Origin: Acidobacteriota bacterium
GTDB taxonomy: Bacteria; Acidobacteriota; B3-B38; Guanabaribacteriales; JAGGZT01
Assembly (NCBI GenBank): GCA_021161905.1
Contig: JAGGZT010000053.1
Span: forward strand, 1-57,190
DNA length: 57,190 nt
Reading direction: 5' to 3'
Position numbers and translations under genes: made by a program. Below the pieces are notes generated by a model. That model made no database searches and was not told the origin of the DNA. It saw only the letters and a program-made list of their open reading frames with translations. Of this stretch, positions 30,158 to 38,455 are shown piece after piece. Numbering within the stretch: the stretch's first letter is position 1; each line of letters starts with the position of its first letter.

Positions 30158-30835
30158 TTAATCTTTCTTTGTACTTCCGGTCAGCTTGATGAACTCCTTT
30201 TTCTCTCGAAGAGGGGCAAAGTCGTCCTCTTCCCGAGCGAGGATGCGGTTTGCTGGGTTAAGCTCTATTGCCCGTTTAAGGTTCTTAATCGCTTCCTTCT
30301 CCTTTCCCAATTGAGCATAAGCACCGGCTATAAGGTAGAGGATTTTTTCATTGTTTGGAGAGAGCCCAAGAGCTTTTTGGTAGTAAGAGAGGGCTTCTTC
30401 ATATTCCCCACGATTGCCGTGAATTATCCCTAGATAATAGAAATCCTCAGCGGTTTTAGGGGTGAATATCTCCTCTGAGAGTCGCCGGTCGCAGATGGTG
30501 ATGTAGGTCTTTGCCCGGTCGCAGATGCTTGCTCGCTCTGGGAACTCCTTGATTATCCGCTCAAACCGTTTTCTTGCCTCAGCGTACTCCCCCTCCCTTA
30601 GCTTGAAGAGCCCCTCTTCATAGAGGCAGAGCGCCTTGTCTTTTTCCTTGGGCTTTACCTCGGTCACCTTTTCCACCTCCTTCACTTTTTCCTTTCTCCG
30701 TAGCCCTAAGCGTCTTAATTTCGCTTCGATCGAGCGTTCGGTAGTATTGAGTTTCTCTGCAAGCTCTTTGTTGCTAAATTTCCTAAAATTTTTGCGGAGG
30801 AAGCGCTCTTCTTCCTCCGAGAAGACCTTAGGCAC
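30158..30835 (-). CDS. HTH (Myb/SANT-like) plus tetratricopeptide-repeat protein
   Basis: Unassigned two-part protein of 225 residues. Residues 1-45 (FSEEEERFLRKNF, SNKELAEKLNTTERSIEAKLRRLGL) look like a short tri-helical HTH of the Myb/SANT or GcrA-like kind. After a Lys/Glu linker come TPR units (ALCLYEEGLFKLREGEYAEA, FYYLGIIHGNRGEYEEALSY, YLIAGAYAQLGKEKEAIKNL). I chose GTG 30835, which has an AAAGGAAG site; the longer TTG at 30853 lacks one and would sit upstream of the predicted transcript start. There is no signal peptide, so it is cytoplasmic. Confidence 0.78.
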   Translation of the reverse strand: MPKVFSEEEERFLRKNFRKFSNKELAEKLNTTERSIEAKLRRLGLRRKEKVKEVEKVTEVKPKEKDKALCLYEEGLFKLREGEYAEARKRFERIIKEFPERASICDRAKTYITICDRRLSEEIFTPKTAEDFYYLGIIHGNRGEYEEALSYYQKALGLSPNNEKILYLIAGAYAQLGKEKEAIKNLKRAIELNPANRILAREEDDFAPLREKKEFIKLTGSTKKD

Positions 30836-30856
30836 TGTGATTCTTCCTTTCAATCA

Positions 30857-30894: not shown

Positions 30895-31407
30895 CTACTC
30901 CTTCTCCTCTTCCCCCTTTCTCCTGAGCTCAACCGCATAGTAAAGGGTGGGAAGAAGGAGAAGGGTGAGGATAGTGGAGGTAAAAGCGCCCCCTACTACT
31001 ACGGTGGCAAGTGGCCTCTGGATCTCGGACCCAGCGCCTAAGGAGAAGAGGAGTGGAGCCACCCCGAGCACTGTGGTCGCAGTGGTCATAAGGACAGGTC
31101 GCAGTTTTAACATCGCCCCGGTCTCTATCGCCTCGCGGAGAGAGACTCCCTTTGCTCGAAGCCTCAGAAAGTAGGACAGCATCACCGTTCCATCGAGAAC
31201 CGCGGTGCCGAATAGGGTGATGAATCCAACCAAAGCGGGCACACTCAGATAGATTCCGGAGAAGAAGAGGGCGAGTATCCCTCCTATGAAGGAGAAGGGG
31301 ATGGCTAAGATGACTAAGGAAGCCGCCTTTGCCGAGTCGAATAGGCTGTAGAGAAGGATGAAGATGAGGAGGATCGATACCGGGATGATGATGGAAAGCC
31401 GTTTCAT
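30895..31407 (-). pseudogene. RND pump remnant, C-terminal fragment
   Basis: Contains the last membrane helices (SIIIPVSILLIFILLY, VPALVGFITLFGTAVLDGTVML, MTTATTVLGVAPLLF). Homology extends upstream of the ATG at 31407 as PGYFVTFGGQFEHQKRAMKR, so the ATG is an internal codon of the ancestral gene and not a real start. Confidence 0.86.
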
Positions 31408-31453
31408 CGCTCGCTTCTGGTGCTCGAATTGACCTCCGAAGGTGACGAAGTAT

Positions 31454-32881
31454 CCCGGAGGTGAGCTCGTCCATCCTCTCCGCTATTGGCTGGCTGAACT
31501 CCATCAATATCCCCGGTATCTTATTCAGCCTCTCCCTCATCTTGTCGACCAGTTCAAACTTGGTCTTTGCTGTCTTCCATTCGCTCCTCGGGGCAAGTTC
31601 CACATAGCTCTCGGTGTTGTTCACCGATTCTGGACAGAGCCCTTTCTCTGCCCTCCCGATGCGGGAGATGACATGACGCACCTCGGGAAATTCGAGGAGT
31701 GCCTTCTCCACCTCTTTTGTGATAAGCACCGCTTCATTGAGGGAGGTGCTCGGTGCCATTGTTACTCGGAGATAGATAGAGCCCTCATCGAGGTAGGGGA
31801 GGAATTCAGTCCCGAGGAGGGGCGTTAGGAAGAGGACGATGACGAGGATGGAGCTGGCGATAAAAAGAACCTTCTTTCGTCCTCCAAGGACCCTGCCCAG
31901 AATGGGATGGTATACCTTCCTTGCTATCTCGAATAGGGGGGCTTTCCCCCTTTTTACCTTTCCCCTAAAGATAATACTGGTAAGTGCTGGGACCATAGAA
32001 AGAGAGAAGATGAGGGAACCTATCATAGCGAAGCTTATAGTATAAGCCATTGGAGAAAATAGCTTCCCCTCTATCCCCTGTAGGGTAAACAGGGGAAGGA
32101 AGACAACGATCAGGATGAGGTTGGCAAAGGTAATGGGTCTCGCTACTTCCTTTGCTGCTCGGGAGATGATCGAAAGGGGTGGTTCATCATTATTTTTGCT
32201 TAGATGGCGGATGATGTTTTCCACCATTACCGTAGGACCATCGACCAACATCCCGATGCCGATAGCAAGACCTCCCAGAGACATCAGGTTGGCGGAAAGC
32301 CCTATTCGTCGCATCAAAATGAAGGAAAGAAGAAGGGAGAAGGGAAGACTGGCGATGACGATAAGGGCACTTCGCACATTTCCTAAGAGGAGGAAAAGGA
32401 CAATGATCACCAGAATACATCCTATGAGAAGGGCGTTTCTTACAGTTGTTACGCACCGTTTTACTAATCCTGCCTGCTCATAATAAGGGACAACCCGCAC
32501 CCCCGGCGGGAGGATTTTGTTGATCTCAGCGACCTTGGCGTCGACCCTCTTTATCACCTCTGAGCTGTTTTCGTAGATTAGCTTCAACACTACTCCGGTT
32601 ACCACCTCACCCTTTCCGTCTCTGGTTACTACCCCCCGGCGGATAGCTGGTCCCACCACAACCTTAGCTACACTACGGAGATAGATCGGGGTGCCCTTAT
32701 TGGTGGCGAGAACGATGTTCTTTATGTCTTCTATATTTTCTATCATCCCGATCCCCCGGACGATATAGCTTCCTCCTACATCGATGTTGTTTCTCTTTAC
32801 CGCCTCGATCACCTGGTTTAGGGTTAGGTTATATTTTAAGAGGAGATTGGGATCTACCAGTATCTGATACTGCTTCTCCAT
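31454..32881 (-). pseudogene. RND pump remnant, central fragment
   Basis: Carries the first membrane domain with the RND helix-4 motif GIGMLVDGPTVMVEN and the second porter half up to MDELTSG. The open frame continues to 30929, but the residues after 31454 are out of frame with the pump and have no homology value. Confidence 0.88.
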
Positions 32882-32891
32882 ACCGCCGACG

Positions 32892-33428
32892 CTAATTACA
32901 TCGGTGACCCCCGGGAACGCTTCTAAGGATGTACTTCACCACCCAATCCTGAATCGTCCTTAACTGGATCAGATTATAACCTTTACCCTCGACGATATAA
33001 GAGTAAACTTGCCCCAAACCGGTGGTAATCGGTCCCATAACTGGAGGTTCAGCGAACCCTTCGGGGATATTGGTCTTCGCCTCCGCCAATCGTTGGAAGA
33101 CGAGTTGGCGGTCGAAATAGATATCGCTTTTATCATTGAAGTAAACCGTGACATAGGAGAGGCCAAACTTAGAAAGGGAGCGGATCTCCTTCACCCCGGG
33201 GAGCCCATTTAAGGAGACCTCTATGGGATAGGAGATAAACTGTTCTACCTCTTCGGTGGCGAGCCCAGGGGCTACGGTAAATATCTCTACCATTGCTGGG
33301 GTGACATCGGGGAAGGCGTCAATAGGGAGCTTCTCTGCAGAATAGATACCTAAAATGGCGATTATTCCAGCGATAAATAAGACCAAGAACCGTTCTTTTA
33401 GCGAAAAATCGATTGTCCTATCGATCAT
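32892..33428 (-). pseudogene. RND pump remnant, N-terminal fragment
   Basis: 178-residue open frame with the first membrane helix (LFIAGIIAILGIY), PIDAFPDVTPAMVEIFT and the start of the porter domain (FGLSYVTVYFNDKSDIYF). It ends in the foreign residues GGHRCN after the G5 frameshift. Confidence 0.88.
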
Positions 33429-33452
33429 TTGCCTCTCCTTGGATTTTATCGC

Positions 33453-33797
33453 TTAATGTTCGTGGGCGTGGAAACTTCCCTTTTCTTCCTCTGATTTAAG
33501 GATCAATGCCCGAGCGAACATTTCTATTTTGAGTTTTCCCTCGGGGTTTACTACCTCTACCCTTGCTTTCACCGTGCGGGTCTTCTCGTCCATCGTGGGG
33601 CTGATCGAGGAAAGTCGTCCGAGGAATTTTTCCTCGGGGTAGGCGGTTACCTTTACGATGTCCCTGTTCCCTACCTTTACCAAGGCTAAATCCTTCTCGT
33701 AGATATCCACCAGCACCCAAAGGATGGAGGTATCAGCGATCTCGAAGAGTTCGTCTTCCGGACTCACCACTTCACCCACTGCAGCATGTTTGCTCAC
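33453..33797 (-). pseudogene. Fusion-protein remnant, C-terminal fragment
   Basis: Encodes HAAVGEVVSPEDELFEIADTS and the beta-barrel/proximal end (ISPTMDEKTRTVKARVEVVNPEGKL), typical of CusB-like adaptors. The apparent GTG start at 33797 is an internal codon. Confidence 0.84.
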
Positions 33798-34153
33798 TAT
33801 AATGCCCGATATGGGGGTGGTAATAGGGAATATGGAGGGAGAGAAGGGTTGTCTGCCGAGATCTGTGCAATTTCAGCCTCGGTTAGTCCAAGAAGATGAA
33901 GTCGTTCATGGCAGGAGGTAAGGTCGATTTTCGCCTCCTGTAGAGCGGTCTCCGCTTCCAGTTTTTTCCTCTCGGGGATGATGTGATCGGCAAAGAGTTT
34001 AACTGCCCGTTGGTAATTTGCTCTGGCAAGTGAAAGCCGGGCTTTGCAGGCTAAGTAACGGGCTCTTGCTTCGCCGAGCTCAATGCTGTCGAAGAGGAGT
34101 AAAGTCTCCCCCTTTTTCACCTTATCCCATAGTTTTACCTTTACCTCAGCCAC
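33797..34153 (-). pseudogene. Fusion-protein remnant, lipoyl and hairpin fragment
   Basis: Encodes AEVKVKLWDKVKKGETLLLFDS followed by the alpha-helical hairpin, then leaves frame near 33840. The native continuation FPITTPISGIIV is in another frame. Confidence 0.82.
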
Positions 34154-34361
34154 CTTCCCTTTGATCCGGGGACGGATATGAGCGTCTGTTGCCGGGTTTG
34201 CTTATCCTCCCAGTAACCTCAATGTAATGGGCAAGCTCATGGTAAGAAACAGGCGTTACCTCCAGTTTGAGACTCTTTAGGACATCAGGGCGAACGGAGA
34301 ACGGCTCTCCAGATTTATGCGTCTTAACAGGGGGGACCCTCCTTGCCTCGGTCATTTTCAT
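34146..34361 (-). pseudogene. Fusion-protein remnant, second fragment
   Basis: Encodes LKLEVTPVSYHELAHYIEVTGRISKP, the first adaptor barrel strand. It then goes out of frame near 34195; a one-base change would continue it as ATDAHIRPRIKGKV. Confidence 0.78.
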
Positions 34362-34476
34362 AATGTCCTATTGCGGTAAAACCTGCCCCGTTCCTCTTAT
34401 GGTGAATGCCGAGATAACTGATAGTAATCAAGGAAATAGCCACCACTCCTATTATGGGTAAGAATTTCCCTTTCAT
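34324..34476 (-). pseudogene. Fusion-protein remnant, N-terminal anchor fragment
   Basis: 51 codons from an ATG with an AGGGGT site, holding the membrane anchor and stopping at TAA just after the C6 run. Dropping one C would continue it as GPPVKTHKSGEPF into the next fragment. Confidence 0.75.
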
Positions 34477-34495: not shown

Positions 34496-37378
34496 CTAAA
34501 ATTTGTTCCCGATCCAGAACGATGTTTTCCACCCCGGCTCTAAGCTTCGTAAGTCGGTTCTCCGGGCAAAGTCCCAGTGAAGTTCGAAGGGACCAAAGTA
34601 GAAATAGACCCCGAGGCCAAGCGACCCTTTAGCGTCTTTGAGCCGGAAATTACTGAAATCGAATGGCTTAAAATCTTGATTGTCGAACCAGGCACCACCT
34701 ATATCGAGGAAGAGACATCCTCTGATCCCCCGGAGGGAGAAACCGATGGGGAAGCGAACCTCGTCGACCAGGGGGAAGCGCAGCTCAAGGTTGGTGAAGA
34801 AGGCTCGGTTCCCAGAGAAAGAGAGGTAGGGATAGCCGCGGAGGGTATCGGTGCCGCCGAAATAGAAGATCTGTGGACTCTCGCCAAAACCCATCCCTCC
34901 AAATAGACGGAAGGCAAAGAGTGTTTGTGAGGAGAGCCGAGTATAATTACGGAAATCAACGGTTAGGTTGGTAAAGCCGAGGAATTGAGAGGAGAAAGGA
35001 GGGGCATACTCTACCGCAAGCCGATACCTCTTTCCTGCGAGCGGTCCGAAGAACTTGTACAAGGTGGTATCTCCCACCAAGGAGAGGCTGAAGGAGAGGT
35101 ATTTCCCTGAGACATAGTATTTTTCAAATTGCGCCATAACTTCGGGCTTATCTGCTATGAGGTATAAGGGGATATCGTAGACCCGATTGACGAAATTGGC
35201 AGAGAACTCTACCCGTCGGAACTTGCTAAAGGGATAGCTTCCATAGATCGACCCCCCTATCTGCTCGATAGCGAGGAGGCGGAGAATGATATTTTCCGGT
35301 CTCTGCTCAGCAAATCCAAACCCGGTATAAAAGAATGATTTGTAATCGAAGACGCTGAAGCCGTAGTTGAGCCTCTGCGCCTGGTTGAAGTAAGCGAAGC
35401 CCACATTGCGGTAGAAACTTCCATAGGTGCTATAGGTGAAGAGAAACCGGTTTTCTCCCAATATATCGGAGAAGCTTATCTGGGTGGAGGTGATTACAGT
35501 GCCGTTGGTCGCTACTGCCCCAGCGGCGGTTATCCCATCTATAAAGAAGCTTCTCCTTGCCTGTTTCTCTTTCTTCCTCTCATCGAGGGTAAAGGTAAGG
35601 GTTGGTGGTTTGAACCCGGAGACCTCCACCTTTTCTTCTTCCTTTTCCTTCGTCGCCATAAAGGAGCGGATGGGCTGGGTAAGCTTCATCCGGTAGAGGC
35701 GATAGCTTCCTCTGAAGTAGGAAGCATAGATCAGCTCGTTCCCTGCCTCATCTACAGGGCAGGGGGTGAAGGCACCACCGAATAGGTCGGTATACTGGTC
35801 TATCCGTCCAGTCGCAAGATCGTAGGTATAGATATTGTATATTCGGTATTGGTTGGAGATGTAGATTATCCTCTTGCCGTCCTTGGTGAATATCGGCTCG
35901 ATGTCGTCGAATTTTCCATAGGTGAGCTGTTTCTTCTCCTCCGGATTGTCCAGGGTGAAGGTGAAGAGTTTAAGGTATCCCTTAACGCTCGAGAGGTAAA
36001 CCACCCTTTTCCCATCGGGGGAGAAGATCGGGGAGTAATCGAAGAATTCATCATTGGTGAGGTTTCTCATCTCCCCGGTTACAAGGTTGATGAGGTAGAT
36101 GTCCCTTATCCCATTTTTGCTTCCGCTTATTAGAACCCTGCTTCCATCGGGGGAAAGAGCGGGGGATAGTGCTTGGTCCAGGGCGAGTTTCATCTTCTTC
36201 AATATCTTGCCTGAGGCGACATCGATGATGAACAAGCTCCGGGTATTCCCTGTCCTTCCGAGGAAGGCAATTCTTTCTCCATTAGCAGACCAAGAGATAT
36301 CCCTTCCTCCAGCGCTAGGAACGGTCATCTGCTCGGCAATGATGTACTCGTAATCGCCGGAGAAACCAGGAGTGAGGTCTTTGAACACTTTACCGTCCTT
36401 GGTGGAGAAGAGCAGGATATCGACATCGTCCTTATAAAAGGAGACGGCGGCGACGAGCTCTCCGGTAGGAGAGAGAGCGGGGGAGATGATCGGGGCGTGA
36501 AATTTAGGGTCGGTCACCCGTTTTCCATAGTCGAGAGGTTCCGCTTTGTTTACCAGCAAGGGGAGGTACTTCTTCCTCAGATGGCGACGGAATTCGGTGT
36601 AGAAATCCTCCATACTGAGATTGAAGGCTTCCTTTATTGCCCGTTTTATACCACGGAGTCCTGTTCCCGCCCGGCGGAGCTCCCAGACGAAAGAGCGGAG
36701 CCCATCTTCACCGAATCTTTCCTCAATAAAATCCCAGAAAAGCTGGCCCACGATATAGGAGGCGATAGGGTTAGTGGGGGATAGTTGCTTGAATGGGGGG
36801 ATGAGGTCGTTTGCCACCAGGTCGCGGACGATCATCTCATCCATCGAATCGAGGTTATTCGCCATATGCTCTGCCATCCCCTCAAGGAGCCAGCCTGGAG
36901 GGTTTGCTCTCGCCCGCTTCATAAAGTTGTTCTGGTAGAAGATATCGAATTGGAAGATGTGGGTGAGTTCGTGTACTACCAGCTTATACATCTTCTCTGG
37001 AGGATCATCCAAAGGGATGACCACTCGGTTTGCCATAGGCTCGGCGAAGCCCCCTACACCCTCGGGAAGGAAAATCGGCACCACATGCTGCTGTTCGAAT
37101 TCACCGTGGGTCTTGAAGAAGATAAGCGAAGCCCTTTCCGTCAGCTCGTAATTTAGCTTTTTACTCAGATATTGATAGGCGTTTTCGCTCCAGCCCACCA
37201 TATCATCGAGGAAGGCTTCCTCCTCAGGGTAATAGTAGATATCGAAGTGAGGTGCCTGATAAACCCGCCAATTGAACTTGGCATAATTTACTTTGTTTTT
37301 GCCAAACTCTTGGTTTAAGGTGGGCAAGCCGGTCGATACTATTATCAGCAATGTTAATAAGATGCTTACTTTTTTCAT
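34496..37378 (-). CDS. Outer-membrane protein joining a zinc metallopeptidase, TolB-like propeller and BamA-like barrel
   Basis: A 960-residue secreted protein with three recognisable parts. After a signal peptide (about residues 1-22) comes a peptidase-MA/gluzincin-like domain with HELTH at 136-140 and a second Glu in WLLEGMAE (166). Residues about 290-590 hold at least six PD40/TolB-type blades (ALSPTGELVAAVS, SPDGSRVLISG, SPDGKRVVYLSS, TKDGKRIIYIS). The last third is a surface-antigen/BamA-like barrel with FFGGTDTLRGYPYLSFSG and a terminal Phe typical of outer-membrane proteins. Function is unknown. It sits third in a minus-strand envelope operon. Confidence 0.85.
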   Translation of the reverse strand: MKKVSILLTLLIIVSTGLPTLNQEFGKNKVNYAKFNWRVYQAPHFDIYYYPEEEAFLDDMVGWSENAYQYLSKKLNYELTERASLIFFKTHGEFEQQHVVPIFLPEGVGGFAEPMANRVVIPLDDPPEKMYKLVVHELTHIFQFDIFYQNNFMKRARANPPGWLLEGMAEHMANNLDSMDEMIVRDLVANDLIPPFKQLSPTNPIASYIVGQLFWDFIEERFGEDGLRSFVWELRRAGTGLRGIKRAIKEAFNLSMEDFYTEFRRHLRKKYLPLLVNKAEPLDYGKRVTDPKFHAPIISPALSPTGELVAAVSFYKDDVDILLFSTKDGKVFKDLTPGFSGDYEYIIAEQMTVPSAGGRDISWSANGERIAFLGRTGNTRSLFIIDVASGKILKKMKLALDQALSPALSPDGSRVLISGSKNGIRDIYLINLVTGEMRNLTNDEFFDYSPIFSPDGKRVVYLSSVKGYLKLFTFTLDNPEEKKQLTYGKFDDIEPIFTKDGKRIIYISNQYRIYNIYTYDLATGRIDQYTDLFGGAFTPCPVDEAGNELIYASYFRGSYRLYRMKLTQPIRSFMATKEKEEEKVEVSGFKPPTLTFTLDERKKEKQARRSFFIDGITAAGAVATNGTVITSTQISFSDILGENRFLFTYSTYGSFYRNVGFAYFNQAQRLNYGFSVFDYKSFFYTGFGFAEQRPENIILRLLAIEQIGGSIYGSYPFSKFRRVEFSANFVNRVYDIPLYLIADKPEVMAQFEKYYVSGKYLSFSLSLVGDTTLYKFFGPLAGKRYRLAVEYAPPFSSQFLGFTNLTVDFRNYTRLSSQTLFAFRLFGGMGFGESPQIFYFGGTDTLRGYPYLSFSGNRAFFTNLELRFPLVDEVRFPIGFSLRGIRGCLFLDIGGAWFDNQDFKPFDFSNFRLKDAKGSLGLGVYFYFGPFELHWDFARRTDLRSLEPGWKTSFWIGNKF

Positions 37379-37397: not shown

Positions 37398-38099
37398 TTA
37401 AACGATTATATTTCTCAAAGCTTTAGAGGAGTATGGAGTGATTATCTCGAGAAACTTGGCGATTACCCTATTTAAGAGGTGGAAGTAAGCCTCACTCTTT
37501 GGTGGCGATGGCTCTCGATAGGTGATCTCCTGCTTCAATATATCCTGATAGATTGGCTTTCCTTTTGCCCCGTCGATGAGGTAAAGGGTGAGTTCCAATT
37601 GATGTCTTCTCTTATTCACCACCCGGGTTCCTTTAATCAACCGTTTGCTTACCGGATGACGGTAAACTACCTCCTCAAAGGCGGTAAACGGTTTGCTCTT
37701 GTAATCGATCTTGCCGAGAAGAATCAGGTCGGCTCCCGCTCTTAAGCTTAGCCTTCTCAGATAGTCAGGATTGGCTACGATCTCATCCACCTTCTTCGGA
37801 GTGAGCTCAAGGGGTTCTTGTACCACCAATTTTAGTTTGCTATGGCTTCTTAATGCCTGACGAAAATAACGGGCAGCTTCCTTTCCCAGATCGAATTTAA
37901 TTTCTTTCACCTTTCTCTCAGCGGCAAAGCCAGCGACGAGGATGGTTTTATACTTCTCTATCTTTAGCCGTTCCCGTTCCGGATGATCTATGGTAACCGT
38001 GTGATAGTAGGTGATGCAGGCGTTTAAGAGAAGAAGAAGGCATATCGGGAGAAGGAGTTTTAACACAGAAAAAAGGTTTTTCCCCTTTCCTTTATTCAT
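37398..38099 (-). CDS. Lipoprotein of unknown function, possibly CsgG-like
   Basis: 233-residue protein with a lipoprotein signal ending in the lipobox LLNAC (Cys28). The body has KTILVAGFAAE, a helix rich in charged residues, RAGADLILLGKIDY and LELTLYLIDGAKGKPIY. This strand pattern recalls the CsgG/FlgT-like fold, but I cannot assign the family with confidence. It overlaps the upstream TPR lipoprotein by 4 bases and lies 19 bases before the peptidase-propeller-barrel gene, so the three are very likely co-transcribed. Confidence 0.82.
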   Translation of the reverse strand: MNKGKGKNLFSVLKLLLPICLLLLLNACITYYHTVTIDHPERERLKIEKYKTILVAGFAAERKVKEIKFDLGKEAARYFRQALRSHSKLKLVVQEPLELTPKKVDEIVANPDYLRRLSLRAGADLILLGKIDYKSKPFTAFEEVVYRHPVSKRLIKGTRVVNKRRHQLELTLYLIDGAKGKPIYQDILKQEITYREPSPPKSEAYFHLLNRVIAKFLEIITPYSSKALRNIIV

Positions 38100-38455
38100 T
38101 TTTTCTCCCTCTTTTTTTCCTTCTTCTTCTCTATCTTTAAGTAGAATTCGCGAAACTCATTGTAGTTCTTCTTGATGATGGAGTTTCCCGGGTCGAGCTT
38201 TAAAGCGATCTGGTATTCCTTTAGCGCTTCTTCGTATCTGCCCGCATTTTCGTAAGCGATAGCGAGGTTGTTGTGAAATTTGGCGACATTGGGATATTTT
38301 TTCACCAATCGCTCCCAGTAGAAGGTAGCCTCCTTCCACAGCCCTCGCTGGGCGGCTTTCACGGCAAACTCGTTTTCCGGCGCTTTCATCCCGGCGGTAC
38401 AGGCAGAAAGGATGAAAGCCGCCCCCATCAAAATCCCAATAATCTTGAGATGCAT
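38096..38455 (-). CDS. Small TPR lipoprotein
   Basis: 119 residues: signal peptide with lipobox LSAC (Cys19), then two tetratricopeptide units (VKAAQRGLWKEATFYWERLVKKYP and KFHNNLAIAYENAGRYEEALKEYQIALKLDPGN) and a very Lys-rich end. TPR lipoproteins of this size usually act as adaptors for outer-membrane assembly machines. It is the first gene after the minus-strand promoter at 38493-38522. Confidence 0.86.
   Translation of the reverse strand: MHLKIIGILMGAAFILSACTAGMKAPENEFAVKAAQRGLWKEATFYWERLVKKYPNVAKFHNNLAIAYENAGRYEEALKEYQIALKLDPGNSIIKKNYNEFREFYLKIEKKKEKKREKK

Follow-up and report, generated by a model that had tools for sequence, protein, structure and literature searches.

Most of what is known about outer-membrane biogenesis comes from Proteobacteria. 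BamA and TamA handle their clients through POTRA domains, and an N-terminal extension of an Omp85 barrel normally faces the periplasm. A 'WD40-Omp85' subfamily of the Omp85/TpsB superfamily was named in 2014 by Heinz and Lithgow, who pointed to TolB as the nearest propeller and compared the arrangement to a fusion of BamA and BamB (PMC4104836). Relatives in the superfamily include the translocators FhaC and PlpD (PMC4104836). The BAM complex is also the site where the peptidase BepA works on LptD (PMC8423444; reviewed in PMC13067283). Other phyla have unexpected outer-membrane machines, as in the Bacteroidota, whose BAM complex has extra lipoproteins, one of them with a six-bladed propeller (PMC12578637). 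Here, we describe an Acidobacteriota locus in which an Omp85-type barrel is joined to both a propeller and a zinc peptidase and is encoded behind two small partner genes. The propeller-Omp85 class has thus been known since 2014; the peptidase and the partner operon are new relative to the open-access literature, in which no paper on the peptidase-propeller-barrel architecture or its operon was found.

The window is a stretch of 57,190 nucleotides from an Acidobacteriota bacterium (GCA_021161905.1, contig JAGGZT010000053.1), and the features discussed below are collected in Table 1. The first-pass annotation had placed a chain of 960 residues at the position of the main gene. Such an open reading frame exists there, with its ATG at 37378 and its stop ending at 34496, and the strand has now been corrected to minus; the plus strand of the interval contains no frame of 960 residues. 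The signal peptide proposed earlier was read from the sequence again, as one of the Sec type, and the mature chain starts near a conserved FGKNKVxY segment. An AlphaFold2 model of the whole chain, built on an alignment of 54 homologues (mean pLDDT 86.4, pTM 0.85), contains all three of the domains that structure prediction had been expected to reveal, in the order mixed alpha/beta peptidase, propeller, linker and barrel, the barrel strands spanning residues 611-956. Searched with Foldseek, this model matched TolB (6e-12) and BamA (6e-11).

Table 1. Features of the peptidase-propeller-barrel gene and its partner genes, in coordinates of the window
Feature	Position	Strand	Evidence
Main gene, peptidase-propeller-barrel protein	34496..37378 (including stop)	minus	960-aa ORF; Pfam; AlphaFold2 model; 41- and 55-sequence alignments
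Signal peptide, residues 1-22	37313..37378	minus	Sequence reading; ...A-Q/FGKNK at the matching position in homologues; low pLDDT at 1-25
Gluzincin metallopeptidase domain, residues 23-290	36509..37312	minus	Domain-only model; Foldseek; profile matches of homologues
HELTH zinc-binding motif, residues 136-140	36959..36973	minus	H136, E137, H140 invariant in 79/79 and 41/41; on helix 127-148 of the model
E166 in WLLEGMAE, candidate third zinc ligand	36881..36883	minus	Invariant in 79/79 and 41/41; on helix 162-173 of the model
Y208, candidate transition-state tyrosine	36755..36757	minus	Invariant; profile alignment with 3cia
Six-bladed TolB-like beta-propeller, residues 297-574	35657..36490	minus	PD40 1.2e-19; TolB structures 1.8e-16; Foldseek TolB 6e-12
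16-stranded Omp85-type barrel, residues 611-960	34499..35548	minus	PF01103 5.8e-7; BamA-chain profile match 1e-7; Foldseek BamA 6e-11
LRGY, residues 846-849, Omp85 L6 hallmark motif	34832..34843	minus	R847 and G848 unchanged in all 55 aligned rows
Gene 2, 233-aa lipoprotein (LLNAC lipobox), FlgT_M/LpoB-like (TolB-N-like)	37398..38099	minus	FlgT_M in family members; upstream conservation
Gene 1, 119-aa TPR lipoprotein (LSAC lipobox)	38096..38455	minus	TPR_2 7.9e-13; upstream conservation

In Pfam the window peptidase domain alone matched DUF6782, BSP and Peptidase_MA_2 weakly, the last (PF13485) at 16.1 bits against a gathering cut-off of 32.4, and there was no match to M48, the family of BepA. 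Profiles of relatives are more telling: Peptidase_MA_2 was matched in 29/41 homologues (best 9.4e-7), and 54 of 55 peptidase domains matched flagellinolysin, an HExxH enzyme. A gluzincin fold at residues 60-290 had been set in advance as a test of the first reading, and Foldseek with a model of the peptidase alone (pLDDT 86, pTM 0.85) returned gluzincins, the best PDB matches being the M9 collagenases ColT, ColG and ColH (1e-5), M1 aminopeptidases and lugdulysin. The domain has both the HExxH motif with a glutamate on a downstream helix and the predicted fold, and on these two features it groups with the gluzincins (clan MA, E subclan).

The zinc site, described at first as an intact HELTH with the glutamate of WLLEGMAE, is indeed preserved in the homologues aligned. 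H136, E137, H140 and E166, together with R118, D186 and Y208, are invariant both in a set of 79 proteins reaching down to about 34% identity and in a set of 41 that takes in far paralogues. In a profile alignment that is itself a weak match (E = 0.01), Y208 falls on the tyrosine of the YxxG helix of the M1 aminopeptidase 3cia. In M1 and M9 enzymes a tyrosine of this kind stabilises the transition state, which makes an active enzyme likelier than an inert one; judged from these residues, the peptidase is more likely active than inert.

For the propeller and barrel, the earlier description of about six PD40 blades and a BamA-like barrel ending in Phe agrees with profile and model alike. The modelled propeller has six blades of four strands each, and PD40 was matched in all 41 homologues. 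The profile comparison that the first-pass annotation had proposed came out divided: PD40 and Omp85 match the window protein, while Peptidase_MA_2 and TolB stay below their cut-offs, the TolB profile TIGR02800 reaching 143.7 bits against a cut-off of 343. A barrel at the C-terminus had been the second test set in advance for the first reading, and the region was indeed modelled as a barrel that matches BamA; PF01103 lies above its gathering score over residues 639-938, and the domain was matched in 12/41 homologues. An L6 motif of the RG[YF] type is present in 114 of 119 homologues, and all 119 have an aromatic C-terminal residue, which is Phe in the window protein. Ahead of the barrel neither Pfam nor the AlphaFold2 model contains POTRA domains, and the same two sources gave no patatin domain in the protein. 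The OM_YaeT cut-off (TIGR03303) is not reached by the window protein; only a gene on contig C12 reaches it.

Canonical BamA, TolB, BamD and LptD are in fact encoded elsewhere in the genome, as profile searches show, and all matches to BamB in this genome fell below the cut-off. Since separate BamA, BamD, TolB and LptD are present, the window protein adds a further Omp85 system to this machinery rather than replacing it, and the ideas that it is the cell's BamA or TolB were rejected because both are encoded elsewhere. A role as a defence protein was likewise rejected, with no PADLOC match. Just downstream, at 30895-34476 on the minus strand, lie an RND pump of the heavy-metal-efflux type, matched as ACR_tran pieces, and its CusB/HlyD-like fusion protein, both split over several frames; either they are pseudogenes or the draft assembly contains frame errors here. 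Farther on, at 30158-30853 (minus), is a gene for a 231-residue TPR protein, whose weaker matches include YfiO and the N-terminal TPR of Slam, the surface lipoprotein assembly modifier.

What is new is that the main gene shares a conserved operon with the genes of two small secreted partners. In the window the TGA of gene 1 overlaps the ATG of gene 2 as ATGA, read directly, and the ATG of the main gene follows 19 nt after the end of gene 2. TPR_2 was matched in all 20 members of the gene 1 family. Gene 2 is more divergent: FlgT_M, whose fold we take to be TolB-N-like, was matched in 25/37 family members (best 5.1e-7) and LpoB weakly in 4, and the window member scores 17.8 bits against FlgT_M (PF16539), under the gathering cut-off of 31.2 (E 0.0039), so that we claim for it no more than a distant resemblance to the middle domain of FlgT. 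A simple pattern finds a lipobox in 24/42 homologues of gene 1 and 3/38 of gene 2; the latter, lacking one in most homologues, is usually soluble.

How stable is this arrangement? Among 78 related loci, drawn from the top 80 by score of 207 candidates (a sample in which close relatives are over-represented and contig ends truncate some loci), a gene 2 homologue lies directly upstream in 66; both partners are present as separate genes in 56, fused in one open reading frame in 7, and gene 2 stands alone in 3. The fusions in seven loci support the idea that the partners act together. A second sample comprised 35 orthologues, hand-picked among the matches from many families; 27 of them have both partners upstream. 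Four others have the TPR gene with a divergent secreted protein in the slot of gene 2, and what seemed a loss of gene 2 in these looks like divergence, the slot being occupied. The last four, forming one clade, have neither partner, with antisense-looking reading frames alone upstream; their partner genes were lost or moved. On the tree, two changes suffice to explain where the operon is present. Across 54 non-redundant loci the TPR protein and gene 2 are the only conserved neighbourhood families; a third conserved cluster was rejected, as it looks like antisense shadow frames of conserved genes. The partners remain 17-46% identical to those of the window across many families.

Relatives of the main protein are common in the phylum, as a survey of the kind suggested at the outset shows: 103 of 199 sampled Acidobacteriota genomes have a peptidase-domain match, mostly within an uninterrupted reading frame some 1000 residues long. 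The search of named genomes used a nine-row alignment, a single-protein query having matched nothing, and the closest relative in it is from candidate division B38 (58% identity), followed by Thermoanaerobaculia, Holophagales and others. A clade of paralogues (six sampled), which starts with FGRNKVQY, stands apart on a long branch with the full domain order and active site kept; all six lack both partners. Beyond Acidobacteriota, a search of plasmids gave one match, the plasmid-borne WP_118831798.1 of Salinibacter ruber, a peptidase-propeller protein of 633 residues with 28% identity over 568 columns. It shares the FGKNK start and the residues of the active site with the window protein and lacks the barrel. 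Its annotation as 'basic secretory protein-like' hides the propeller. The spread over Acidobacteriota, the partner genes and the 2014 recognition of the propeller-Omp85 class were all absent from the first-pass annotation.

What might such a protein do? We propose, tentatively, as the likeliest of the readings compared but at somewhat less than even odds, that the locus encodes an outer-membrane, periplasm-facing assembly and quality-control module with a built-in protease, additional to BAM. The protein would be exported and then held in the outer membrane by its C-terminal barrel. Because N-terminal extensions of Omp85 proteins normally face the periplasm, the peptidase and propeller would hang there, where both partners, the lipoprotein with TPR and the TolB-N-like one, could dock as recruiters. 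The propeller and partners would recruit clients, the barrel would insert them or pass them on, and clients that are stalled or immature would be cut by the zinc peptidase. A single module would then combine jobs that in E. coli belong to BamA (barrel), BamB (propeller), BamD (TPR) and BepA (peptidase). A stronger version, that this is a phylum-wide, self-contained Acidobacteriota machine, distinct from BAM and TAM, with a barrel as insertase, a propeller for docking and a zinc protease for proofreading in one chain and two operon-encoded partners, is possible but doubtful.

The basis of the mechanism is the domain order, the predicted folds, the invariant active site, the conservation of the operon and the separate BamA, BamD, TolB and LptD. 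Beyond this, we infer outer-membrane insertion, periplasmic orientation, proteolytic activity, a physical complex and the clients of the protein. The action of BepA on LptD at BAM is an analogy in favour of the quality-control reading. Against the mechanism stand the missing POTRA domains, the want of a lipobox in most gene 2 homologues and the clades without the operon, namely the four orthologues and the paralogues, from which it follows that neighbouring partners are not a constant requirement. Moreover, the main protein is missing from about half of the sampled genomes and hence is no part of an essential core machinery. The first-pass annotation had already suggested an anchored processing or quality-control machine. 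Its three-domain anatomy and intact catalytic site stand on profiles, invariance and folds; the machine role is still something we infer, although the conserved pairing of the main gene with genes for a TPR lipoprotein and a TolB-N-like protein in one operon makes it somewhat more likely and suggests that the machine is widespread.

The main rival is a dedicated exporter or processor, in which the barrel would export a single specific substrate or a few of them (or else the peptidase, much as PlpD of type Vd secretion does with its patatin) and the peptidase would mature them, with no general quality control. The presence of FhaC and PlpD among the Omp85/TpsB relatives (PMC4104836) speaks for this idea. 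Secreted substrate-degrading enzymes (the collagenases and lugdulysin) are also among the nearest peptidase folds, and the barrel-less Salinibacter relative would be soluble. However, type Vd proteins have a POTRA between passenger and barrel and this protein does not, the conserved neighbourhood consists of the two partners with no substrate-like gene, and partners of periplasmic style (TPR lipoprotein, TolB-N-like protein) speak for a periplasmic site. On this evidence we consider a dedicated exporter rather unlikely.

It is less probable still that the propeller and gene 2 form an envelope-integrity or peptidoglycan scaffold of a Tol-Pal or Lpo-like kind, tying outer membrane and cell wall together, with the peptidase trimming envelope proteins. 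A genuine TolB is encoded elsewhere, Pfam gives no peptidoglycan-binding domain in any of the three proteins, and the resemblance of the window's gene 2 is weak; set against this are the closeness of the propeller to TolB and the FlgT_M and LpoB matches of the gene 2 family. The notion of an inert peptidase domain that merely binds clients or partners would account for the low PF13485 score, but it has to explain why zinc ligands, general base and candidate catalytic tyrosine are invariant in both protein sets and persist in the barrel-less Salinibacter relative, and we regard it as very unlikely. Finally, with a draft assembly of 72 contigs and frame-broken efflux genes next door, faulty assembly, a miscalled gene or a chance neighbourhood might be suspected of having produced the chain or the operon. 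Homologues refute this reading, the same full-length architecture recurring in dozens of independent genomes as open frames of about 1000 residues, with the partners conserved across many families, and its probability is negligible.

If the assembly and quality-control reading is true, the locus provides a unit for asking how a POTRA-less barrel machine takes its clients, and it bears on whether an Omp85 protein can have proteolytic proofreading built into it. The operon also gives a context for otherwise unnamed TPR and FlgT_M-like secreted proteins.

How, then, does the protein compare with known systems? Compared by the text description of PMC4104836, it has the barrel and POTRA-less propeller of WD40-Omp85, both being Omp85-type barrels with a TolB-like propeller in place of POTRA; that text mentions no N-terminal gluzincin or partner genes, and the 'metalloprotease' subfamily of the same paper is defined by PF00149, a different domain from the gluzincin found here. 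TolB of the Tol-Pal system, with its six-bladed PD40 propeller, is the nearest structure to that part of the chain, even though the score is far below the TolB equivalog cut-off. PlpD (type Vd) shares an enzyme domain N-terminal to an Omp85 barrel, but it combines a patatin with POTRA, whereas the window protein has a different enzyme, a propeller instead of POTRA and an accessory operon. BepA is an M48 peptidase with its TPR in the same chain; here the peptidase is an M9/M1-like gluzincin and the TPR is in a separate gene. There is also a parallel with BamA, BamB, BamD and BepA of E. coli, since the operon offers the same kinds of parts, an Omp85 barrel, a propeller, a TPR lipoprotein and an outer-membrane zinc peptidase; unlike in E. 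coli, barrel, propeller and peptidase are in one chain without POTRA, in a cell that has a separate BamA and BamD.
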